Of a stretch of DNA of 46,033 bases, positions 32,891 to 42,725 are shown piece after piece. The notes beneath the pieces were generated by a model. That model was not told the origin of the DNA. It worked only from the letters and a program-made list of their open reading frames with translations, and did no database searches. Positions within the stretch are counted from its first letter, which is position 1, and every line of letters begins with the position of its first letter. This DNA is from an uncultured Alphaproteobacteria bacterium (GTDB lineage: Bacteria > Pseudomonadota > Alphaproteobacteria > Rhodobacterales > Rhodobacteraceae): the NCBI GenBank assembly GCA_902584635.1, contig CACIAQ010000011.1, forward strand, positions 1 to 46,033, in the 5' to 3' direction. A program made the position numbers and the translations under genes.

Positions 32891-34174
32891 TTGAACTTCA
32901 TGAATTTCCAAGATTTTTTCAATCCTGATAGGGTCGTAGATTTAAGCTTTTTTAATTTTGAGAACGCTATTACTGCTTGTTACTATGCAGATAAGGATTT
33001 GAAAGTAAAAAAGGTCAACAAAAACTTCAAAGGGTTTTTCCCGGTTCTAGGCAATGTTAAAGATGCGTACTTCCCAGACATTTTAAAGCAGCTAGGTGTA
33101 ACAGACGAACAGATACAACTTTTTGAGGATGAAATCCACAATAAGGGCTCTATTTTAATCCCAAAGGTCAAGATTATTATTGATGATAAAGAGAGACTTT
33201 TTTCGCTACTTTCAACAAAAACAAAAAATTCTGATTTTGAGTACTTAAACGGAATTCAAGGTCAATTCGTAGATAGAACGAATGAACATAAGTTAACTAA
33301 GCAACGAGACTTACTTATAGAAGGGCAATTAAAAGATAAACAAATAATTGAAGAAAAAAGTAAAAAACTCGAAAGCTTGGCAACTAGGCTGGCTAAATAT
33401 CTATCTCCTCAAATTTATAAGAATATTTTTGAGGAAGAAAAAGACCAGGGTGTTTCTCATAGCAGAAAGAACTTAACAGTATTTTTTTCTGATATCGTAA
33501 GTTTTACTGATTTAACTGATAAAATGGAGCCTGAAAAACTTGCGCTGATCATAAATTCCTATTTGTCAGAGATGTCAACAATAGCGATTAAATATGGCGG
33601 CACCATTGATAAATTTATTGGAGATGCTCTAATGGTTTTTTTTGGTGATCCAGAGACCCTTGGAGAAACTGATGACGCTCTAAAGTGTATAGAAATGGCC
33701 ATAGCTATGCAGGAAAGAGTAAAGGAATTGCAATCACATTGGAGGGGCTTAGGAGCAGTTGAGGGTATATCAGTTAGGATGGGAGTTTCAAATGGGTTTT
33801 GTACTGTAGGGAACTTTGGTTCCGATTTACGATTAGATTATACGATACTTGGAAGCCCAGTTAATCTTGCTGCAAGACTACAGTCAATGGCCGAAGTTGA
33901 TGATTTGCTTGTTGATGAGAACACAAAAAATCTTATTTCAACTGAAGTAGAAACTGAGTTCGTAAAAGAATTTACACCCAAAGGATTTGTTAGGCCAATT
34001 GGGATTTTTAAGGTGAAAAAATTAAAGTCTCATAAGCAAGATAAAATAAAATTATCGCATAAAGGAAAAAGAGTTGAAATCAATGTAACCGACAGCTCTG
34101 ATATTCGTGCAGCAATTGAGGAGCTGAAGTCGATCCAAGAGGCGTATGAAAAGCAACTGGCTAAGCAAGATTAA
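32891..34174 (+). CDS. Soluble class III adenylate cyclase with a PAS-like N-terminal domain
   Basis: 427 residues, no membrane segment. Residues about 20-130 resemble a PAS sensor ('AITACYYADKDLKVKKVNKN'). A charged coiled-coil linker (about 130-165) leads to the catalytic domain (about 190-375). Metal Asp201 lies in 'FFSDIVSFTDLTDKM' and Asp245 in 'DKFIGDALMVFFG'; Lys241 favours ATP. 'YTILGSPVNLAARL' gives the transition-state Asn and Arg. A charged tail follows. The likely role is cytoplasmic cAMP synthesis controlled by a ligand, redox or light-type signal on the PAS domain. It stands alone after a 100-bp spacer and converges on the thioesterase gene. Confidence 0.87.
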   Translation: MNFMNFQDFFNPDRVVDLSFFNFENAITACYYADKDLKVKKVNKNFKGFFPVLGNVKDAYFPDILKQLGVTDEQIQLFEDEIHNKGSILIPKVKIIIDDKERLFSLLSTKTKNSDFEYLNGIQGQFVDRTNEHKLTKQRDLLIEGQLKDKQIIEEKSKKLESLATRLAKYLSPQIYKNIFEEEKDQGVSHSRKNLTVFFSDIVSFTDLTDKMEPEKLALIINSYLSEMSTIAIKYGGTIDKFIGDALMVFFGDPETLGETDDALKCIEMAIAMQERVKELQSHWRGLGAVEGISVRMGVSNGFCTVGNFGSDLRLDYTILGSPVNLAARLQSMAEVDDLLVDENTKNLISTEVETEFVKEFTPKGFVRPIGIFKVKKLKSHKQDKIKLSHKGKRVEINVTDSSDIRAAIEELKSIQEAYEKQLAKQD

Positions 34175-35651: not shown

Positions 35652-36794
35652 TTGCCCGGATTCGAGGTAATAGACGAAAAAGAGAAAAAAGCAATTTCAA
35701 GGATCTTTGATGAAGGGAAAGTTTTCTTTGCTCATGGTTTTGATAAAAAAAGGAAACATTACCATGTTAGAGAGTTTGAACAAGAGTTGAAAACTGTTTT
35801 CAGCCCAAAAATGGCTGACGTTTTGTGTGTTTCATCTGGCACAGCTGCAATTAAAGTGGCTCTAAAAGCTCTAGGTGTGGGAAAAGGTGATGAGGTTATT
35901 ACACAGTCCTTTAATTTCATTGCGACAGTTGAAGCAATTATTGACACTGGTGCAAATGTTGTTTTTACAGATATAGATGATACACTTAATATGTGTCCCA
36001 AAAATTTAGAAAGTTTAATTTCCAAAAAAACAAAAGCTATAATTCCTGTTCATATGCTGGGTGTACCAGCGGAAATGATATTAATTAATAGGATTGGCAA
36101 AAGAAATAAAATTCCAGTAGTTGAGGATGCATGCGAAGCGATTGGGGCCAAGGTTGCCGGCAAATATGTAGGGGGCTTGAGTGAATTTGGTGTTTTTAGT
36201 TTCGACTTTGGTAAAATGATTACTACCGGTGAAGGTGGAGCTCTGTTTTCCAAGAAGAAAAGCGATGGAAAAAACGCTAGAATGTATCATGATCATGGCC
36301 ACAAAAATATTCCTAATCTGCCAAGAGGGTTAGATCATGCTGGGTTGATAGGGTTTAATTACAGAATGACAGAAATAAGTGGAGCATTTGGAAAGGTCCA
36401 GCTAAAAAAATTCCCTAGTATTTTAAGAGATTCAAAAAAGAGATACCACGCCCTCGAAAAATGTATTTACCACAAAGACATAAAATTTAGACATGTTTAT
36501 TCAGGGAGCGAACCCAACTATGATACTTTTGTGATATCTATCGAAAATAAAAAATTACGTAACCAAGTGATAAGTTTACTAAACAAAGCTGGCTTTGGTA
36601 CAAAAAATTTACCTGATGCATTTAACTGGCATTGTGCATATTTTTGGGAACATGTTGACAAAAACATTAGGAATAAAGAGGTAAAAAGTTGCTATGATAG
36701 ATTGCTTAAATGCGTTGCGATCCCGATTTTAGTATCGAAGTCAATTAAAGATTACAAAAAAATTGCCAGTGATATTAATGAATGCTCTGAATGA
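35652..36794 (+). CDS. DegT/DnrJ/EryC1/StrS aminotransferase, KdnA-like
   Basis: 380 residues. PLP motifs: 'CVSSGTAAIKVAL', 'VVEDACEAIGAKVAGKYVGG' and the Schiff-base lysine in 'FSFDFGKMITTGEGGALF'. Several features recall the Shewanella KdnA (8-amino-3,8-dideoxy-manno-octulosonate transaminase): the start MPGFE, 'VHMLG', 'MYHDHGHKNIP', 'GFNYRMTEISGAFG' and 'NWHCAYFWEH'. This is from memory and needs alignment. It would transfer an amino group onto a keto or aldehyde sugar. The start is TTG 35652, with AGGAG about 7 nt upstream. It is the first gene of a three-gene operon whose reading frames overlap. Confidence 0.85.
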   Translation: MPGFEVIDEKEKKAISRIFDEGKVFFAHGFDKKRKHYHVREFEQELKTVFSPKMADVLCVSSGTAAIKVALKALGVGKGDEVITQSFNFIATVEAIIDTGANVVFTDIDDTLNMCPKNLESLISKKTKAIIPVHMLGVPAEMILINRIGKRNKIPVVEDACEAIGAKVAGKYVGGLSEFGVFSFDFGKMITTGEGGALFSKKKSDGKNARMYHDHGHKNIPNLPRGLDHAGLIGFNYRMTEISGAFGKVQLKKFPSILRDSKKRYHALEKCIYHKDIKFRHVYSGSEPNYDTFVISIENKKLRNQVISLLNKAGFGTKNLPDAFNWHCAYFWEHVDKNIRNKEVKSCYDRLLKCVAIPILVSKSIKDYKKIASDINECSE

Positions 36795-37578
36795 AAAATT
36801 AGTTATAGTCATTCCCGCTCGTAAAAATTCAAAAAGGCTCAAAAATAAGAACTTTAAGAATTTTTTTGGGTTTCCTTTATTTGAGTGGAGTTTAGCAGCG
36901 GGTTTACTTTTAAAGCAACAGCTGAGTGGGTTAAGAGAAATTTTAGTAGTTTGCACCAGTGATGATGATCGTATTTTAGATTTAATAAAACAGAAATATT
37001 CGTCCAGTGTTCTAGCGGTCAGGAGGAAACCAGAACTTTCTGATGATAATGCAATTCTATCCGATGTCATATTTGATTGTATCTACAGGCTATCTGAGCT
37101 ACACGTGATCCGTTTAGATGACTACTTAGCTGGCAGCTTTATATTGTTGCAACCGACATCACCTATTAGACTGAAGGATGATTTAGTCTCTTTTTGTAGA
37201 CAAATTAAGAACTTAGGGAATAGTCTTTCTATGGTATCTGTAAATAATAATTACAGCTCAGTAAAAGATATCTATGAGATAATTAAATTTAGCGAAGTAA
37301 AATCAGATTTTTTGTTAGGCCACATAGGTAAAAAATTGCTTAAAGTGCGTGACACTAAAAAAGATAGCAATTCAGCTTTTGTCGATGGAAGTTTGTATTT
37401 CGGTTTAATGTCTATGCTAAGAGAAAAAGGCTTCATGCCTGCAGCCAAAACCTTGGCTTTTCCTCTCTCGATTAAGCGCTCAATAGATATTGATACGGAA
37501 GAGGAGTTTGACGATGCATTAGTGTTGATCAGAGAGTTACAAAATTTGGGAATAGAGTATGTCTCACCAAAGATATGA
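36763..37578 (+). CDS. neuA: CMP-nonulosonic acid (sialic acid-type) cytidylyltransferase
   Basis: 271 residues. The nucleotide-binding signature 'VIPARKNSKRLKNKNFKNFF' lies near the N-terminus, then 'VVCTSDDDRILDL', 'LLQPTSPIRLKDDL' and a late 'IDIDTEEEFDDAL'. These mark the CMP-sialate/CMP-Kdo synthetase superfamily, closest in style to NeuA. It activates a nonulosonic acid with CTP. Its start overlaps the aminotransferase gene by 32 bp (ATG 36763) or 17 bp (ATG 36778). It overlaps the GMC gene by 20 bp, indicating coupled translation. NeuB and NeuC are encoded convergently next door. Confidence 0.82.
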   Translation: MPVILMNALNEKLVIVIPARKNSKRLKNKNFKNFFGFPLFEWSLAAGLLLKQQLSGLREILVVCTSDDDRILDLIKQKYSSSVLAVRRKPELSDDNAILSDVIFDCIYRLSELHVIRLDDYLAGSFILLQPTSPIRLKDDLVSFCRQIKNLGNSLSMVSVNNNYSSVKDIYEIIKFSEVKSDFLLGHIGKKLLKVRDTKKDSNSAFVDGSLYFGLMSMLREKGFMPAAKTLAFPLSIKRSIDIDTEEEFDDALVLIRELQNLGIEYVSPKI

Positions 37579-39103
37579 TTTAGCGATTGTTGGTGCTGGA
37601 ACAGCTGGTCTTGAAATTGCAAAAAATGCTAGTAGGTCAGGTTTTAAGGTGTGTTTAATAGAGCAGGGATACTCTGAAGGTAATAGCTATCTAAATAAAA
37701 TACCGTTATTATCAGGAAAATTACTGCAAAATGATAAACATTGTTTAAGCTTTATATCCAAAAAACAAACTGGCTTAGGAGATAGAGAATTGCCTATTCT
37801 CCAGGGAATTGGTTTTGGTGGTTCAAGCTTAATTAATGGAAATGTTTCATACTTAGGTTTCGAGAAACGCTTCAAAGAGGTTTTTTCTTTATGGCCAAAA
37901 AATATGTTCCAGAGAGTTAAGAAGCTGATATATCATAATACAAATTTTTCTTATAATAGAGAGTATGGGTATTCAGATGATCTAACTAATATTTTTTGTA
38001 AAACTCTAAACAAGATTGCAGTTCCTGAGGTTGCGGATTTAGATAATTTTATAGAAGGATGGGCAAAAATTCATCTAAATATTAAGGGATCAAAGAGATA
38101 TAATTTTTCAAATGATTTCAAAGAAAATGCAAAACACCAAAATATTGAAAAGCTAGCAAATACACGAGCGATTAAGATCTTTTTTAAAGACAACCATGCT
38201 TCAGGCATTGAGTGTGAAAATTTAATATCTAAGGCTAAAGTTGTTGTTAATGCAAAAAAAATTATTCTTTCGGCAGGCACAATATTTTCACCTTTAATTT
38301 TGATGCGGTCGGGGATCGGAGACAAAAAAAACGTTTATAAAGCAGGCGCCCCTTTAATGATACAGCAAGAACATGTAGGGAAACATTTAAAAGATCATGC
38401 AAATTTCAGGATTGAATTCGATTGTATGGGGTTCGATACGCTTAACCAAAAAACACGCGGGTTGAAATTATTTTTTGAATTTGTTAAATATATTGCTTCA
38501 AAAAATTCGATCTTTAAAAGTCCAGGTGCCACTCTTGCCTGGAATAAAACAAGTTTCAATAAGGAAGCTAGTATAAACGACTTGGTGAGGTATCATCTAG
38601 TGCATTTTACGCAAGAAAGAAGCTTATTATCGTCCAAGGGTATTAGATTTCAAAAAGATCAGCGAGCATCACTGGGGTGCTTTCAAGTTTTTCCGAGATC
38701 GGAAGGATCTATCTCTTTTGATAATAAAAATGAGATACAAATTGATCCAAACTATTTGTCGAACAAATATGATATAGAACTTTCTTACAAAGCTTTTCAA
38801 AGCGCCATCCATCTCTTGAAAAAAGTGGGCTTTGCTAAAAGTGGAAAATATTTTATTAATGACGATATAAAAAGAAATATTGGGTCTGAAACGTTTTCTG
38901 GATACCATCTGATAGGAACTAATAGAATGAGCAAAAATAAAAATAGTGGAGTAGTTGATGAAAGTTTTAAAGTATTCGGGACCAACAATCTATATGTCTG
39001 TGACGCATCGATATTTCCTGATTTCGTTTCAACGCATCAATATTTGCCTACTTTAGCAGCAAGTAAGATTTTTTGTTTAAAACAAGGTTTTCTCAATGAT
39101 TAG
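37559..39103 (+). CDS. GMC-family FAD-dependent oxidoreductase
   Basis: 514 residues. FAD-binding 'YDLAIVGAGTAGLEIAKNAS' opens the protein. 'GIGFGGSSLINGNV' is the second glycine-rich GMC segment and 'LSAGTIFSPLILMRSGIG' the GMC signature 2. The C-terminus has 'GYHLIGTNRMS' and 'NNLYVCDASIFPDFVSTHQY', the usual catalytic and FAD-closing region with its His. GMC enzymes oxidise alcohols, often of sugars. Placed in frame-overlap with an aminotransferase and a CMP-sugar synthetase, it may oxidise a sugar hydroxyl to a carbonyl for amination. Its 3' end overlaps the end of neuC by 11 bp. Confidence 0.85.
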   Translation: MSHQRYDLAIVGAGTAGLEIAKNASRSGFKVCLIEQGYSEGNSYLNKIPLLSGKLLQNDKHCLSFISKKQTGLGDRELPILQGIGFGGSSLINGNVSYLGFEKRFKEVFSLWPKNMFQRVKKLIYHNTNFSYNREYGYSDDLTNIFCKTLNKIAVPEVADLDNFIEGWAKIHLNIKGSKRYNFSNDFKENAKHQNIEKLANTRAIKIFFKDNHASGIECENLISKAKVVVNAKKIILSAGTIFSPLILMRSGIGDKKNVYKAGAPLMIQQEHVGKHLKDHANFRIEFDCMGFDTLNQKTRGLKLFFEFVKYIASKNSIFKSPGATLAWNKTSFNKEASINDLVRYHLVHFTQERSLLSSKGIRFQKDQRASLGCFQVFPRSEGSISFDNKNEIQIDPNYLSNKYDIELSYKAFQSAIHLLKKVGFAKSGKYFINDDIKRNIGSETFSGYHLIGTNRMSKNKNSGVVDESFKVFGTNNLYVCDASIFPDFVSTHQYLPTLAASKIFCLKQGFLND

Positions 39104-40217
39104 TAGTCTCAAAAAATGTTTTCTGTAGATTTAATGCCCAAATTTTTTTATCGTGTAAAATTTTGGTAAATTTTTTTGCAGATTGACCATATCCAAAACT
39201 TTTATCAGGTTCAAAGCGCTTACCCCATTGTTTTTCAACTAGGTTGTCAAGTAGTCCGTTTTTAAAGACATCAAAGTCTTTTATACTTTTTGCTCCACCT
39301 CTTTTAAATTGGCGAGAGCCGATGTTGATCGAAGAAACCCCAAGGAAAGGTGCTTCTCTAACACCCGCTGAACTATTACCTATGATAACTTTAGAATGTT
39401 TTAGTAATGTCGAAAAATATGCAAATCTCATAGAAGGTATCTGTTTGAAATGAGATTTGGGTAATTTTTCAATTGTCTTAAAAATTATTTCACATCCTGG
39501 ATCGTTATTTGGAGCAATAACTACGAAGTTCTTTTTTGTTTTTTTTAAGGCATCACAACAAAATTGGATCTCTTTCTTTAAACTTTCCAATTCTGAGGTA
39601 ACCGAATGAAAAATAAAAATCCCATAGTCATCCCACTCAATATCGTAGTAATTCAAGACTTCGTTGAGCGGAATTGAATTTCTTGCTTTATGTGCATCAA
39701 GTTCTGGAGACCCTAGCACAAAAACTCTATGGGGATGCTCTCCAAGTTTTATAACGCGTTTTTTTGCTGATTTTGAACTTACAAAGTGGACGGTACATAA
39801 CTTTGTATTACAGTGACGATAAACTTCATCGATAGTTCCTGATACTTCTCCTCCTTCGATGTGTGCACTTCTTATGTTCTTTGTTGCACAAACAAGGGAA
39901 GCAGCAACTGCTTCAATTCTATCGCCATGGATCAAAACAAGATCAGGTTTTAAGCGGCTTACATATTCAGAAATTCCAGTAATAGTTCTAGAAAGGATCT
40001 TGTCCGGTGGATCTCCTTCCATCTGGTTGACAAATTCAAATCTTTTGATGTTTTCCATCCTTGAAACTTCTATACTGGTAAGTCCATACTTCTCTAGAAG
40101 ATGCATGCCAGTGACAAAAAAATAAATGCCAAATCCTGCTGATTTTGCGCTAGATGCTAAAGGGGCAAGTTTACCGAAGTCAGCTCTTGTGCCTGTTATG
40201 AATAGCAGTTTTTTCAC
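39093..40217 (-). CDS. neuC: UDP-N-acetylglucosamine 2-epimerase (hydrolysing)
   Basis: 374 residues, GT-B-like epimerase fold. 'LLFITGTRADFGKLAPLA' at the start, 'VLIHGDRIEAVAASLVCATK', 'SAHIEGGEVSGTIDEVYRH' and 'VIGNSSAGVREAPFLG' match the NeuC type; I recall very similar stretches in Campylobacter NeuC1. It converts UDP-GlcNAc to ManNAc plus UDP, the first step to N-acetylneuraminic acid. GTG start 40217, 10 bp after the neuB stop, so neuB-neuC form an operon. It converges on and overlaps the GMC gene by 11 bp. Confidence 0.88.
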   Translation of the reverse strand: MKKLLFITGTRADFGKLAPLASSAKSAGFGIYFFVTGMHLLEKYGLTSIEVSRMENIKRFEFVNQMEGDPPDKILSRTITGISEYVSRLKPDLVLIHGDRIEAVAASLVCATKNIRSAHIEGGEVSGTIDEVYRHCNTKLCTVHFVSSKSAKKRVIKLGEHPHRVFVLGSPELDAHKARNSIPLNEVLNYYDIEWDDYGIFIFHSVTSELESLKKEIQFCCDALKKTKKNFVVIAPNNDPGCEIIFKTIEKLPKSHFKQIPSMRFAYFSTLLKHSKVIIGNSSAGVREAPFLGVSSINIGSRQFKRGGAKSIKDFDVFKNGLLDNLVEKQWGKRFEPDKSFGYGQSAKKFTKILHDKKIWALNLQKTFFETTNH

Positions 40218-40227
40218 ATCAATCTCT

Positions 40228-41256
40228 TTATTCCAAATCTGACCACTTTAACTGAGTATTTTTAGCAATGTCTCGTTTAACAATTTTCCCTAAAACTTTT
40301 TCAAATTCGAAAGCAGGTATTTCTCCGTTTCCCGGTCTTCTTGCCCAGATATTTTGTCTATCAATAGTATCGCCTTTTTTTAGATTTTTATCGCTAACAA
40401 GGGAAGATCGTGCAAATTTGTAAACATCTTTTTCAACGTTGGCTATAAACTTCTTTCTATCCCTCGAAAAAGCTATTTCCTTGCTTTTTGTTATAAGGTG
40501 CTCGAGCTCATCTGGGTCCATTGAACAGGAAATGTCGGGCCCTGGTCGGTTTTTGGTATCGGTGAAGTGCTTTTCTACAATTGTTGCACCTAGTGCAACA
40601 GCTGCTAAAGCCATTGTTGGTCCAATTGAATGGTCTGAAAAACCTATCTCGGCATTAGGAAACTTATTAGATAGCTGTGCCAAGCTACCAAGTGCTATAT
40701 CTTTTGGTGGGCAAGGATAAATGTTTGTACATTCTAAAAGTGCATATTCAATATTTTTTTTCTCAAAGATTTTTACGGGCTTTTCCACCGACAATAAGTT
40801 TTGCATGCCTGTAGAAAGAATAATTGGCTTCCCAAAATCTGCTATATGCTCAATTAAGAGAAGATTATCACATTCCCCAGAACCAATCTTAAAAGCGGGT
40901 ACATTTATATCACTTAAAAAATCTGCTGCAGATCTTGAAAAGGGAGTGGAAATATAAATCATTCCCAAGTCCTCTACTAATCTCTTTAATTTGATTTCTT
41001 CATCTTTTGTTAAGGAACATTTTTCCATTACATCCCATATTGAGACATCCGCGTTAGGGGGCATGATTTGTTTTGCGTCAGTGGTCATTTCATCATCAAG
41101 AAAGTGTGTTTGGTGTTTAATTACTTCACAGCCTCTATCGGCAGCTGTTTTAACCATTTGCTCTGCAACCAGCAAATCACCACCGTGATTGATACCCAGT
41201 TCTGCAATGATTAGAGGGGCTTCTTTAGAGCTGATAGTCCTATTTTTTATTTTCAA
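40228..41256 (-). CDS. neuB: N-acetylneuraminate (nonulosonate) synthase
   Basis: 342 residues. The TIM-barrel domain shows 'PLIIAELGINHGGD', 'VIKHQTHFLDDEMT', 'YISTPFSRSAADFL', 'AFKIGSGECDN', 'GFSDHSIGPT', 'EKHFTDTKNRPGPDISCSMD'. A C-terminal SAF (antifreeze-like) domain covers about 280-342 ('NIWARRPGNGEIP'). The enzyme condenses ManNAc or a relative with phosphoenolpyruvate to a nine-carbon acidic sugar. The 'HQTH' and 'SxCSMD' blocks are like those of Campylobacter NeuB1, favouring N-acetylneuraminate over legionaminate or pseudaminate; this is a recollection. The start is TTG 41256. It is first in the neuB-neuC operon and diverges from waaA. Confidence 0.9.
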   Translation of the reverse strand: MKIKNRTISSKEAPLIIAELGINHGGDLLVAEQMVKTAADRGCEVIKHQTHFLDDEMTTDAKQIMPPNADVSIWDVMEKCSLTKDEEIKLKRLVEDLGMIYISTPFSRSAADFLSDINVPAFKIGSGECDNLLLIEHIADFGKPIILSTGMQNLLSVEKPVKIFEKKNIEYALLECTNIYPCPPKDIALGSLAQLSNKFPNAEIGFSDHSIGPTMALAAVALGATIVEKHFTDTKNRPGPDISCSMDPDELEHLITKSKEIAFSRDRKKFIANVEKDVYKFARSSLVSDKNLKKGDTIDRQNIWARRPGNGEIPAFEFEKVLGKIVKRDIAKNTQLKWSDLE

Positions 41257-41357
41257 AATTTTTAAGCCTATCTTTTAAAAATATGAATGAGTAAGATGAT
41301 ATTTCTCAATTAACAAGCAAGCAATGCTTTAATAAGTTAATTTTTTTGGAGTGTCGA

Positions 41358-42725
41358 TTGAAATTTAGTTTAAAAAAAATACTTACCTTAATAGTTTTCA
41401 ATCTTTATAAGGCTCTTTGGTATTTATTTTTGCCAATTGCATTATTGTATTTCTTTTATCGGTCGATAAAAGAACCAGGATATTCTTCAAATCTTATAGA
41501 AAGATTAAGTGTTTATAAAAAAGACTTTAAAGGAGCTTGTTGGTGCCACGCGGTATCTCTAGGAGAATTTAGAGCTGCACGCCCAATTTTTAATAAACTT
41601 CTTCTCAATGGAGAAAAATTACTAATAACCACACTGACTTTATCTGGCAAACGTGCCGCACAGCAAGAATATCAAAAAGAAATAAATGAAAATAAGGTGG
41701 TAATCGTTTACGCTCCACTCGAAATAAGCTTACTGTTTAAAAGATTCCTTAAAAATTTCAAGCCAAAGTGCTGTATAATCCTTGAATGTGATTTATGGCC
41801 AGTAATGATCACGACTACTTACAAGGAACAAGTTCCTCTAATATTTGCCCAGGCTCAATATCCTGAAAAAGGTTTCCTTAGAGATAAAAAATTCCCTTTT
41901 CTGAAAGCTAGTTTGATTGAAAAATTCGATTTAGTTTTATCTAAATCTGAAAGGCATAAGAAACGATTTGAGTACTTTGGGGCTAAAGAAGTTTTAATTA
42001 TGGGCGATGCTAGATTTGAACAAGGGGTTCCACTAGACCAAATTAATGCAGCCTTGAAACTAAAAAAAATAGCTCTTAAGAAATATTTTACGATTTGTTT
42101 TGCAAGTATTGGGAAGCAGGAATTTGAAATAATCAGTAAAATAATAAGTGGTCTATATAAAAAACATAAGGATATTTTTTTTATACTCGTTCCCAGACAT
42201 CCTAATGATTTCAAAAAATATAAGATTTTGTTTGAAGACAGTTCAATAAAAGTAAAACCACGCAGCGAAATTTTAGAAATTAAAACAGGTTTTAAAATTT
42301 ATAATGAAAAAAAATTTAAAGACTTAAATAATTTTAGCCTGTTGTGGGGTGATAGCCTCGGAGAATTGAATTTTTATATGGCAATGTCTGATCTAGTTTT
42401 TATGGGTGATTCTTTAAACAATGAAGGATCTCATAACATAATTGAGCCTTTTGCTTTACAAAAGCCTGTTATAGTAGGGCCAAGTATTTGGGGCATCGAA
42501 TATCCAGCATTGGAAGCACTAGATGTTGGTATTTTAAAAAAAATTAGTGGACAAAAAGAGCTAGAATCTGCTCTGGCTTCAGCTTATCACGATAGGAAAT
42601 GTAACAACTTTGATAAAAGTCAGATAAATGATATTAAAAATTTTTACAAGAGTAAACAAGGAGCTTCAGACAGTTTTATGGATCAAATGATCAAGAATAA
42701 TTTTCTGGAATTAAATAATAATTAA
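41358..42725 (+). CDS. waaA: 3-deoxy-D-manno-octulosonic acid (Kdo) transferase
   Basis: About 455 residues, a little longer than usual. One N-terminal membrane anchor (about 5-32, with 'YLFLPIALLYFFYRSI') is followed by two GT-B domains. Motifs: 'WCHAVSLGEFRAARPIF' with the catalytic Glu, 'ILECDLWPVM', 'GDARFEQ', 'LLWGDSLGELNFYMAMSDLV', 'GSHNIIEPFALQKPVIVGPS'. WaaA adds Kdo from CMP-Kdo to lipid A precursor at the inner membrane. TTG 41358 is preferred because GGAG lies upstream; a TTG at 41346 is in frame. Its place next to neuB suggests the acidic sugar made here may end up on lipopolysaccharide. Confidence 0.88.
   Translation: MKFSLKKILTLIVFNLYKALWYLFLPIALLYFFYRSIKEPGYSSNLIERLSVYKKDFKGACWCHAVSLGEFRAARPIFNKLLLNGEKLLITTLTLSGKRAAQQEYQKEINENKVVIVYAPLEISLLFKRFLKNFKPKCCIILECDLWPVMITTTYKEQVPLIFAQAQYPEKGFLRDKKFPFLKASLIEKFDLVLSKSERHKKRFEYFGAKEVLIMGDARFEQGVPLDQINAALKLKKIALKKYFTICFASIGKQEFEIISKIISGLYKKHKDIFFILVPRHPNDFKKYKILFEDSSIKVKPRSEILEIKTGFKIYNEKKFKDLNNFSLLWGDSLGELNFYMAMSDLVFMGDSLNNEGSHNIIEPFALQKPVIVGPSIWGIEYPALEALDVGILKKISGQKELESALASAYHDRKCNNFDKSQINDIKNFYKSKQGASDSFMDQMIKNNFLELNNN

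Follow-up and report, generated by a model that had tools for sequence, protein, structure and literature searches.

A conserved aminotransferase and GMC flavoprotein cassette of Rhodobacteraceae that probably puts an amine in place of a hydroxyl on a sialic-acid-like sugar

A six-gene locus in an uncultured member of the Rhodobacteraceae (source genome G000; 2.01 Mb assembly, 92 contigs, 77.5% complete) includes a conserved three-gene cassette by which a hydroxyl of a sugar similar to sialic acid is probably turned into an amine. The locus lies on contig 11 (CACIAQ010000011.1), the whole 46,033-nucleotide stretch of which is called the window hereafter. It encodes a DegT aminotransferase (AT), a cytidylyltransferase (CT) and a GMC-family flavoprotein (GMC) in overlapping frames on the plus strand, then neuC and neuB in the opposite orientation, and after them a waaA-type gene whose product, a paralogue within glycosyltransferase family 30 (GT30), we term WaaA1:

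35652..36794, plus strand: AT, a KdnA-like aminotransferase of the DegT/DnrJ/EryC1 family and the proposed installer of the amine (PF01041, 247 bits)
36763..37578, plus strand: CT, a NeuA/PseF-type cytidylyltransferase for ulosonates activated with cytidine monophosphate (CMP) (CTP_transf_3; PF02348, 45 bits)
37559..39103, plus strand: GMC flavoprotein, the proposed alcohol oxidase or dehydrogenase acting on the sugar of AT (PF05199, 83 bits; PF00732, 67 bits)
39093..40217, minus strand: NeuC, a hydrolysing UDP-N-acetylglucosamine (UDP-GlcNAc) 2-epimerase (TIGR03568, 344 bits, cut-off 236)
40228..41256, minus strand: NeuB, a sialic acid synthase (PF03102, 230 bits; TIGR03569, 353 bits, cut-off 400)
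41346..42725, plus strand: WaaA1, GT30 paralogue (Glycos_transf_N/WaaA) and the proposed nonulosonate transferase (PF04413, 132 bits)

The initial annotation had described this arrangement, with neuB and neuC converging on the three-gene operon and waaA following, and coordinates and family assignments confirm all six genes. The AT frame starts with a TTG codon, and CT has a likelier ATG start at 36778, 15 nt into the listed open reading frame (ORF).

Within a family sample of 394 genomes, nearly one per genus (for each search, the best three to four first-look candidates of each genome were scored), GMC orthologues were detected in six genomes (E-value ≤ 1e-60) and AT in the identical six (E-value ≤ 1e-50), all of which have the gene order AT-CT-GMC-WaaA1 (in G283, the adjacency of WaaA1 and GMC was read across two separate sequence stretches). 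A second set, the named AT loci, comprises the best 79 of the 437 relatives that a scan with two peptide patterns retrieved; the nearest of these come from uncultured Alphaproteobacteria with single-cell-style names (AG-...), followed by Rhodobacteraceae/Rhodobacterales. GMC adjoins AT in 26 of the 79 loci, CT lies between them in every one of these, and WaaA1 follows downstream in 23, the contigs of the remaining three stopping earlier. This recurrence argues that the AT-CT-GMC arrangement is not due to chance, and shows that the linkage on which the initial annotation built its oxidase-aminotransferase pairing is conserved among relatives. The notion of a one-genome oddity was rejected, the cassette being present in five genera of the family sample and in further named genomes, among them those of Halocynthiibacter namhaensis RA2-3 (L054) and Rhodobacteraceae bacterium IMCC1909 (L051). 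In the window and in the 15 loci nearest to it (L030-L043, L061), GMC is separated from WaaA1 by the neuC-neuB pair; elsewhere, in the other genera examined, GMC and WaaA1 are adjacent or overlapping. One locus (L037, from 6656 on) has WaaA1 split into two ORFs by a frameshift or assembly error, and three others (L052, L094, L098) bear titles (Flavobacteriales, Bifidobacterium breve) that disagree with neighbours resembling Rhodobacterales or actinomycetotal metagenome-assembled genomes, perhaps as mislabelled bins.

Among solved structures, the first match to AT is KdnA of Shewanella (5k8b, 200.7 bits vs. 156.1 for the runner-up), and a profile of six AT orthologues likewise gives KdnA 292 bits vs. 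213 for the next structure; the lysine in the K(T/M)IT.GEGG segment aligns as well. For a quick tree, the window AT, KdnA and 59 of the 79 AT loci (the other 20 being near-duplicates) were set against 10 neighbouring DegT paralogues from the same loci, of which four exceed the LegC cut-off, two the PseC cut-off and four neither. The AT/KdnA side is split from these paralogues with a support of 100, so that the KdnA-like character proposed at the outset stands and a grouping with some other DegT clade was not what emerged. Assignment of AT to LegC, PseC, ArnB, WecE or RfbH was rejected because each NCBIfam model scores less than half its cut-off, and the tree sets AT apart from the neighbouring paralogues. 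KdnA forms the first branch on the AT side, on a long branch, and "KdnA clade" is therefore used here in a wide sense.

The oxidant found beside AT is exchanged from locus to locus. Counting genes on the same strand as AT, within 900 nt and with profile scores above 200 bits (GMC being reached across CT), 31 of the 79 loci have an iron-dependent alcohol dehydrogenase (Fe-ADH), 26 a GMC, 12 a PhyH-like dioxygenase dependent on iron and 2-oxoglutarate (Fe/2OG), and 10 none, with no locus having two. In the AT tree the GMC rows form a single clade (support 99), and at least seven changes of oxidant are needed. Eleven of the 12 PhyH loci are titled Pelagibacteraceae or Prochlorococcus, and the Fe-ADH loci are spread across many phyla. 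Judging from these gene neighbourhoods, we read Fe-ADH, GMC and PhyH as three unrelated enzymes for what would be one step, the oxidation of a carbinol before transamination. The idea that a flavin-dependent GMC takes over the step of KdnB, advanced in the initial annotation, gains weight from this mutual substitution beside one AT family, and a GMC-AT partnership with GMC in the KdnB role appears to us very likely. As far as the contigs extend, no same-strand Fe-ADH or PhyH was found within 6 kb of AT in the 26 GMC loci (Fe-ADH was not searched genome-wide).

The loci counted without an oxidant are a mixed group: PhyH is present in convergent orientation in L056 and 4 kb away in L062, a different GMC lies 4 kb away in L075, Fe-ADH genes occur at 3.5-3.8 kb in L066 and L083 (weak in L083), L103 starts near a contig end, and no Fe-ADH, GMC or PhyH was found in loci L078, L079, L084 and L088. 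L055, counted under Fe-ADH, has in addition a PhyH gene in the opposite orientation to AT. The PhyH-like dioxygenase, a third candidate oxidant, stands beside or near AT in L056-L060, L062-L065, L072, L095, L099 and L104 (Pelagibacteraceae/SAR11, Prochlorococcus). The only Fe-ADH tested, that of L081, scores 81 bits against KdnB vs. 160 against methanol dehydrogenase; it is not close to KdnB, and we accordingly name the group by its family, Fe-ADH.

The window GMC has both GMC domains, the dinucleotide motif and the two active-site histidine positions; His450 and His493 are invariant in all 12 aligned orthologues and match the histidines of 8rpf in the alignment. Its predicted model is weak (predicted local distance difference test score, pLDDT, of 60). 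The other GMC mentioned above, in the Campylobacterales cluster L075 (4498-6051, 4 kb from AT, with no Fe-ADH or PhyH found near), scores 186 bits against the operon GMC profile, within the 150-200 bits of ordinary GMCs, and sits on a long branch in the tree; no claim is drawn from it.

The accompanying genes suggest on which sugar this pair would act. The initial annotation had named both 3-deoxy-D-manno-oct-2-ulosonic acid (Kdo) and the nine-carbon product of NeuB as targets. In five operon CTs the PseF model scores 68-83 bits (window 69, cut-off 206) and the KdsB models at most 44 (window at most 31); the window CT misses the PseF equivalog cut-off and, being distantly like PseF/NeuA, is filed as NeuA/PseF-type. 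By comparison, two loci of the form KdsB-FeADH-AT (L093 and L101, the latter also with waaA), which look like true loci for the 8-amino derivative of Kdo (Kdo8N), carry synthetases with KdsB scores of 252 and 213 bits (TIGR00466). The source genome has a separate KdsB on contig 17 (NCBIfam), beside a KdsD-like gene (KdsD being read from sequence alone), and a second waaA on contig 35, which answers the question of further copies raised with the initial annotation. NeuC of the window exceeds the NCBIfam cut-off for NeuC_NnaA (344 vs. 236 bits); NeuB, at 353 bits vs. a cut-off of 400, nevertheless scores highest with this model, and among solved structures it matches the sialic acid synthase SiaC best (1xuu, 372 bits). 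At E-value ≤ 1e-60, NeuB occurs in all six cassette genomes of the family sample vs. 62 of the 394 overall (chance 1.2e-5, or 8e-5 by genera, ignoring kinship) and in eight of 11 further cassette genomes, i.e., 14 of 17 in total.

Three cassette genomes that are each listed as 100% complete (G030, G246, G283) all carry NeuB, and their clear CMP-sugar synthetases are KdsB and the operon CT only; other PF02348 matches in them reach at most 35 bits and are mostly ORFs of 380-480 aa, with one of 199 aa. The operon CT is thus the likely activator of the NeuB product. With a CT that is not of the KdsB type, a separate KdsB gene elsewhere in the genome and an enrichment of NeuB in cassette genomes, Kdo is the less likely substrate and a nonulosonate a reasonably probable one, so that of the two targets first named the NeuB product is better supported and Kdo no longer stands on an equal footing. 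Several further observations concern synthetases. The CTs of the window and of L023 have an altered nucleotide-binding start, PARKNSKRLKNKN, vs. PARxGSKGxPGKN in four other genera. In other NeuB-bearing genomes (L185, L189, L193, L194, L196, L198-L201), a different cytidylyltransferase lies near NeuB/NeuC, next to a short-chain dehydrogenase and/or a Gfo/Idh-like enzyme, and may serve or modify sialic acid otherwise. Contig 35 of the source genome (L018, 1443-6365) holds a NeuA-like synthetase, a Gfo/Idh oxidoreductase and a gene of the 3-deoxy-D-arabino-heptulosonate 7-phosphate (DAHP) synthase family near the housekeeping-type waaA, along with a shikimate-dehydrogenase-like gene (read from sequence), perhaps a cluster for a further 2-keto acid sugar.

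The last gene of the cassette, WaaA1, has a Glycos_transf_N domain and the GT30 fold (the fold being taken from a predicted model of the G030 orthologue, pLDDT 92, for which Foldseek returns WaaA 2xci first, E-value 9e-19). That it is the sole waaA of the cell was rejected, given the housekeeping-type waaA on contig 35. Two tandem waaA genes were seen at 14 of 20 NeuB neighbourhoods of family genomes, with NeuC alongside in 13; among these 20, the cassette genomes G246 and G283 have a single, NeuC-side waaA copy at NeuB. In a quick tree, 55 WaaA proteins (after removal of one partial duplicate) fall into two clades with a support of 100, the row of L101 being on a long branch. Clade I contains ten cassette WaaA1, the 14 distal tandem copies and one sequence from G008. 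The NeuC-side copies fall in clade II, as do the second waaA genes of the six cassette genomes of the family sample and all eight sequences taken from seven NeuB-less genomes, from which WaaA1 is thus set apart. The glutamate of the HxxSxGE motif, the catalytic residue of GT30, is kept in all 42 rows compared (of the 55) in both clades. At positions 171, 200 and 223 of the window protein, clade I has Q, K and R (21, 21 and 20 of 21 rows), vs. R, Q and K in clade II (21 of 21 each).

Clade I also follows the nonulosonate genes across the family. A clade-I protein search of the 394 genomes gave 69 genomes with a match at E-value ≤ 1e-70, a line set after the gap was seen, with all others at E-value ≥ 1e-40 or without a match, barring G372. 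Clade I is present in 57 of 62 NeuB genomes and in 12 of 332 others (both 57, NeuB only 5, clade I only 12, neither 320; Fisher p-value 1.6e-50, ignoring kinship); two NeuB carriers, G372 (truncated gene, 2.5e-54) and G262 (short piece, 52% identical), are both counted here as lacking clade I. The PseC cut-off was passed by eight of the 12 clade-I genomes without NeuB, by seven of 50 controls without both (p-value 6e-4 between these two) and by one of 10 NeuB-bearing genomes. G448 and G305 each have an uninterrupted block that comprises genes for a PseB-like protein (recognised by sequence reading), PseC, a cytidylyltransferase, a member of the NeuB family and WaaA1. Among the four clade-I genomes lacking PseC, a piece of NeuC and a CT adjoin the clade-I gene of G367 at a contig end, G484 has a CT there, and no nonulosonate gene was found in the stretch examined around the clade-I gene of G288 and G393. 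This tracking of NeuB and PseC, the separate clade and the near-fixed differences suggest that clade I transfers nonulosonates and not Kdo. The view of the operon gene as an ordinary WaaA, placing Kdo, is not supported, as it belongs to a GT30 clade of its own in a genome with a second, housekeeping-type copy. Where PseB-like, PseC, cytidylyltransferase and NeuB-family genes are followed by a clade-I GT30 (L223, 5053-10340; L225, 4691-10010), the latter is a candidate pseudaminyl transferase.

The catalytic steps, the substrate, the carbon and the acceptor on the lipopolysaccharide (LPS) are what we infer from these data. NeuC, assigned by family, would release N-acetylmannosamine (ManNAc) from UDP-GlcNAc, and NeuB, likewise assigned by family, would join it with phosphoenolpyruvate to give N-acetylneuraminic acid (Neu5Ac). 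GMC, performing for AT what the Fe-ADH KdnB does for KdnA, would then oxidise a carbinol of the nonulosonate to an aldehyde, most likely at the terminal C9 hydroxyl, which is favoured by analogy with C8 of Kdo. The KdnA-like AT would transaminate this aldehyde to 9-amino-9-deoxy-Neu5Ac or a close analogue, CT would activate the aminated product as its CMP sugar, and WaaA1 would transfer it onto the Kdo that the housekeeping enzyme (WaaA2) had placed on lipid A. Such a transfer to the LPS core would be fitting for the core of Loktanella rosea, with neuraminic acid (Neu) on Kdo, this species being, we take it, an alphaproteobacterium of the same family as the source genome. That the locus as a whole makes and attaches a sialic acid aminated at C9 seems to us an evenly poised proposition. 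More tentatively, these results can be joined into a wider picture, in which a GT30 family of Rhodobacteraceae transfers sialic or pseudaminic acid onto the Kdo of the LPS core, the sugar would, in this open-ocean lineage and a small number of other genera, be a natural 9-amino-9-deoxy-sialic acid made by a flavin oxidase and a KdnA-clade AT, and the KdnA clade would stand for ulosonate amination with freely exchanged oxidants (Fe-ADH, Fe/2OG dioxygenase, GMC) in many phyla, including SAR11 and Prochlorococcus. Among the papers listed in searches of an open-access library, none dealt, judging by its title and the opening of its abstract, with a GMC oxidase in a KdnB-like role, a GT30 nonulosonate transferase or the biosynthesis of a 9-amino nonulosonate.

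Several points weigh against a C9-aminated sialic acid. The source genome has a further non-KdsB synthetase on contig 35 (~85-86 bits, CTP_transf_3), so that the argument from an only synthetase comes from the relatives and not from the window genome. NeuB was not found in three of the 17 cassette genomes (L045, L052, L053), one of them being 3.4 Mb, and neuBC lies away from the cassette in most other genera seen. The acceptor and the location on LPS are drawn from GT30 membership and from one published structure in another genus. The substrate of KdnA itself is Kdo. AT can also sit, in other phyla, in clusters with LegC-type genes (the LegC cut-off being passed by the four of 10 paralogues noted above). 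Legionaminic acid has no C9 hydroxyl, its C9 being a methyl, so that another carbon or another sugar must be meant in those clusters; the AT family is probably tied to neither one carbon nor one sugar.

The strongest alternative is a Kdo8N pathway, in which GMC would oxidise C8 of Kdo, AT would aminate it and CT would form CMP-Kdo8N, with WaaA1 as a second, Kdo8N-preferring transferase and neuBC serving another glycan. KdnA is the nearest characterised protein to AT, a waaA-type gene closes the operon in 23 of 26 loci, the AT family does include KdsB-FeADH-AT loci, and NeuB either went undetected (three of 17 cassette genomes) or sits apart from the operon (most other genera seen). However, the CT is not KdsB-like, the NeuB product would be left without a clear synthetase in the three complete genomes, and clade-I WaaA occurs in 63 more family genomes without a detected AT, of which 51 have NeuB and eight of the other 12 PseC; we therefore regard this pathway as rather unlikely. 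Less probable still would be an amine at another nonulosonate carbon (C4, C7 or C8), or at C6 of ManNAc ahead of the NeuB reaction. Both primary and secondary alcohols can be oxidised by GMC enzymes, and AT relatives do occur in the LegC-bearing clusters, where C9 is a methyl; against this, KdnB is listed in PMC5125639 as a Kdo 8-oxidase, i.e., an enzyme of the terminal carbinol. Finally, a mere co-location of GMC and AT with different substrates, for which one may cite the large and functionally broad GMC family, the poor GMC model and GMC relatives in the PDB that give no sugar-specific clue, is very improbable, as the two genes share their distribution over the 394 genomes at the thresholds used, belong to a run of overlapping genes and have no rival same-strand Fe-ADH or PhyH within the reach stated above.

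Outside the locus, the window encodes a nucleotide cyclase resembling Pycsar cyclases (32891-34174; PADLOC PycC, 81 bits), which is near the cassette in the nearest relatives too.

If sialic acid amination at C9 is correct, an aminated sialic acid would be added to natural LPS chemistry, and the inner core of marine bacteria would carry a zwitterion where its net charge is otherwise negative. Three unrelated enzyme families would fill one step, GT30 clade I would be a candidate transferase for the Neu-on-Kdo core of Loktanella rosea, and waaA copy number could be read correctly in genome annotation. The cassette, standing beside a WaaA1 that tracks nonulosonate genes, suggests a new means of altering outer-surface charge in roseobacter relatives.

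Compared with known systems, the nearest LPS structure is the lipooligosaccharide core of Loktanella rosea, given in a passage of a review (PMC3210612) as three ulosonic acids, alpha-Neu-(2->8)[alpha-Kdo-(2->4)]-alpha-Kdo. It shares with the product proposed here an inner core of ulosonic acids including one nonulosonate, but the sugar reported is Neu rather than a 9-amino sugar, and the passages at hand of PMC3210612 and PMC5811610 tie no genes to the structure. Rhodobacter capsulatus is mentioned in a passage of PMC9631793 among bacteria with Neu5Ac in their LPS. The KdnB-KdnA pathway to Kdo8N, a sugar described in PMC6357163 as a hallmark of Shewanella, resembles the cassette in combining a KdnA-clade AT with an alcohol-oxidising partner and, as predicted here, in aminating an acidic sugar that is part of LPS. 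The cassette differs from it in that a GMC flavoprotein replaces the Fe-ADH, the synthetase is NeuA/PseF-type and not KdsB-type, NeuB/NeuC are found in most cassette genomes and a GT30 paralogue lies inside the operon. With the NeuABC (SiaABC) pathway to N-acetylneuraminate, the locus shares NeuC (by cut-off) and NeuB (by its top-scoring model and its closest solved structure), whereas its synthetase is divergent and shares an operon with oxidase and aminotransferase genes. Lastly, WaaA1 has the GT30 fold of the Kdo transferase WaaA and keeps the glutamate of the HxxSxGE motif, but it belongs to a separate deep clade and tracks the nonulosonate genes.

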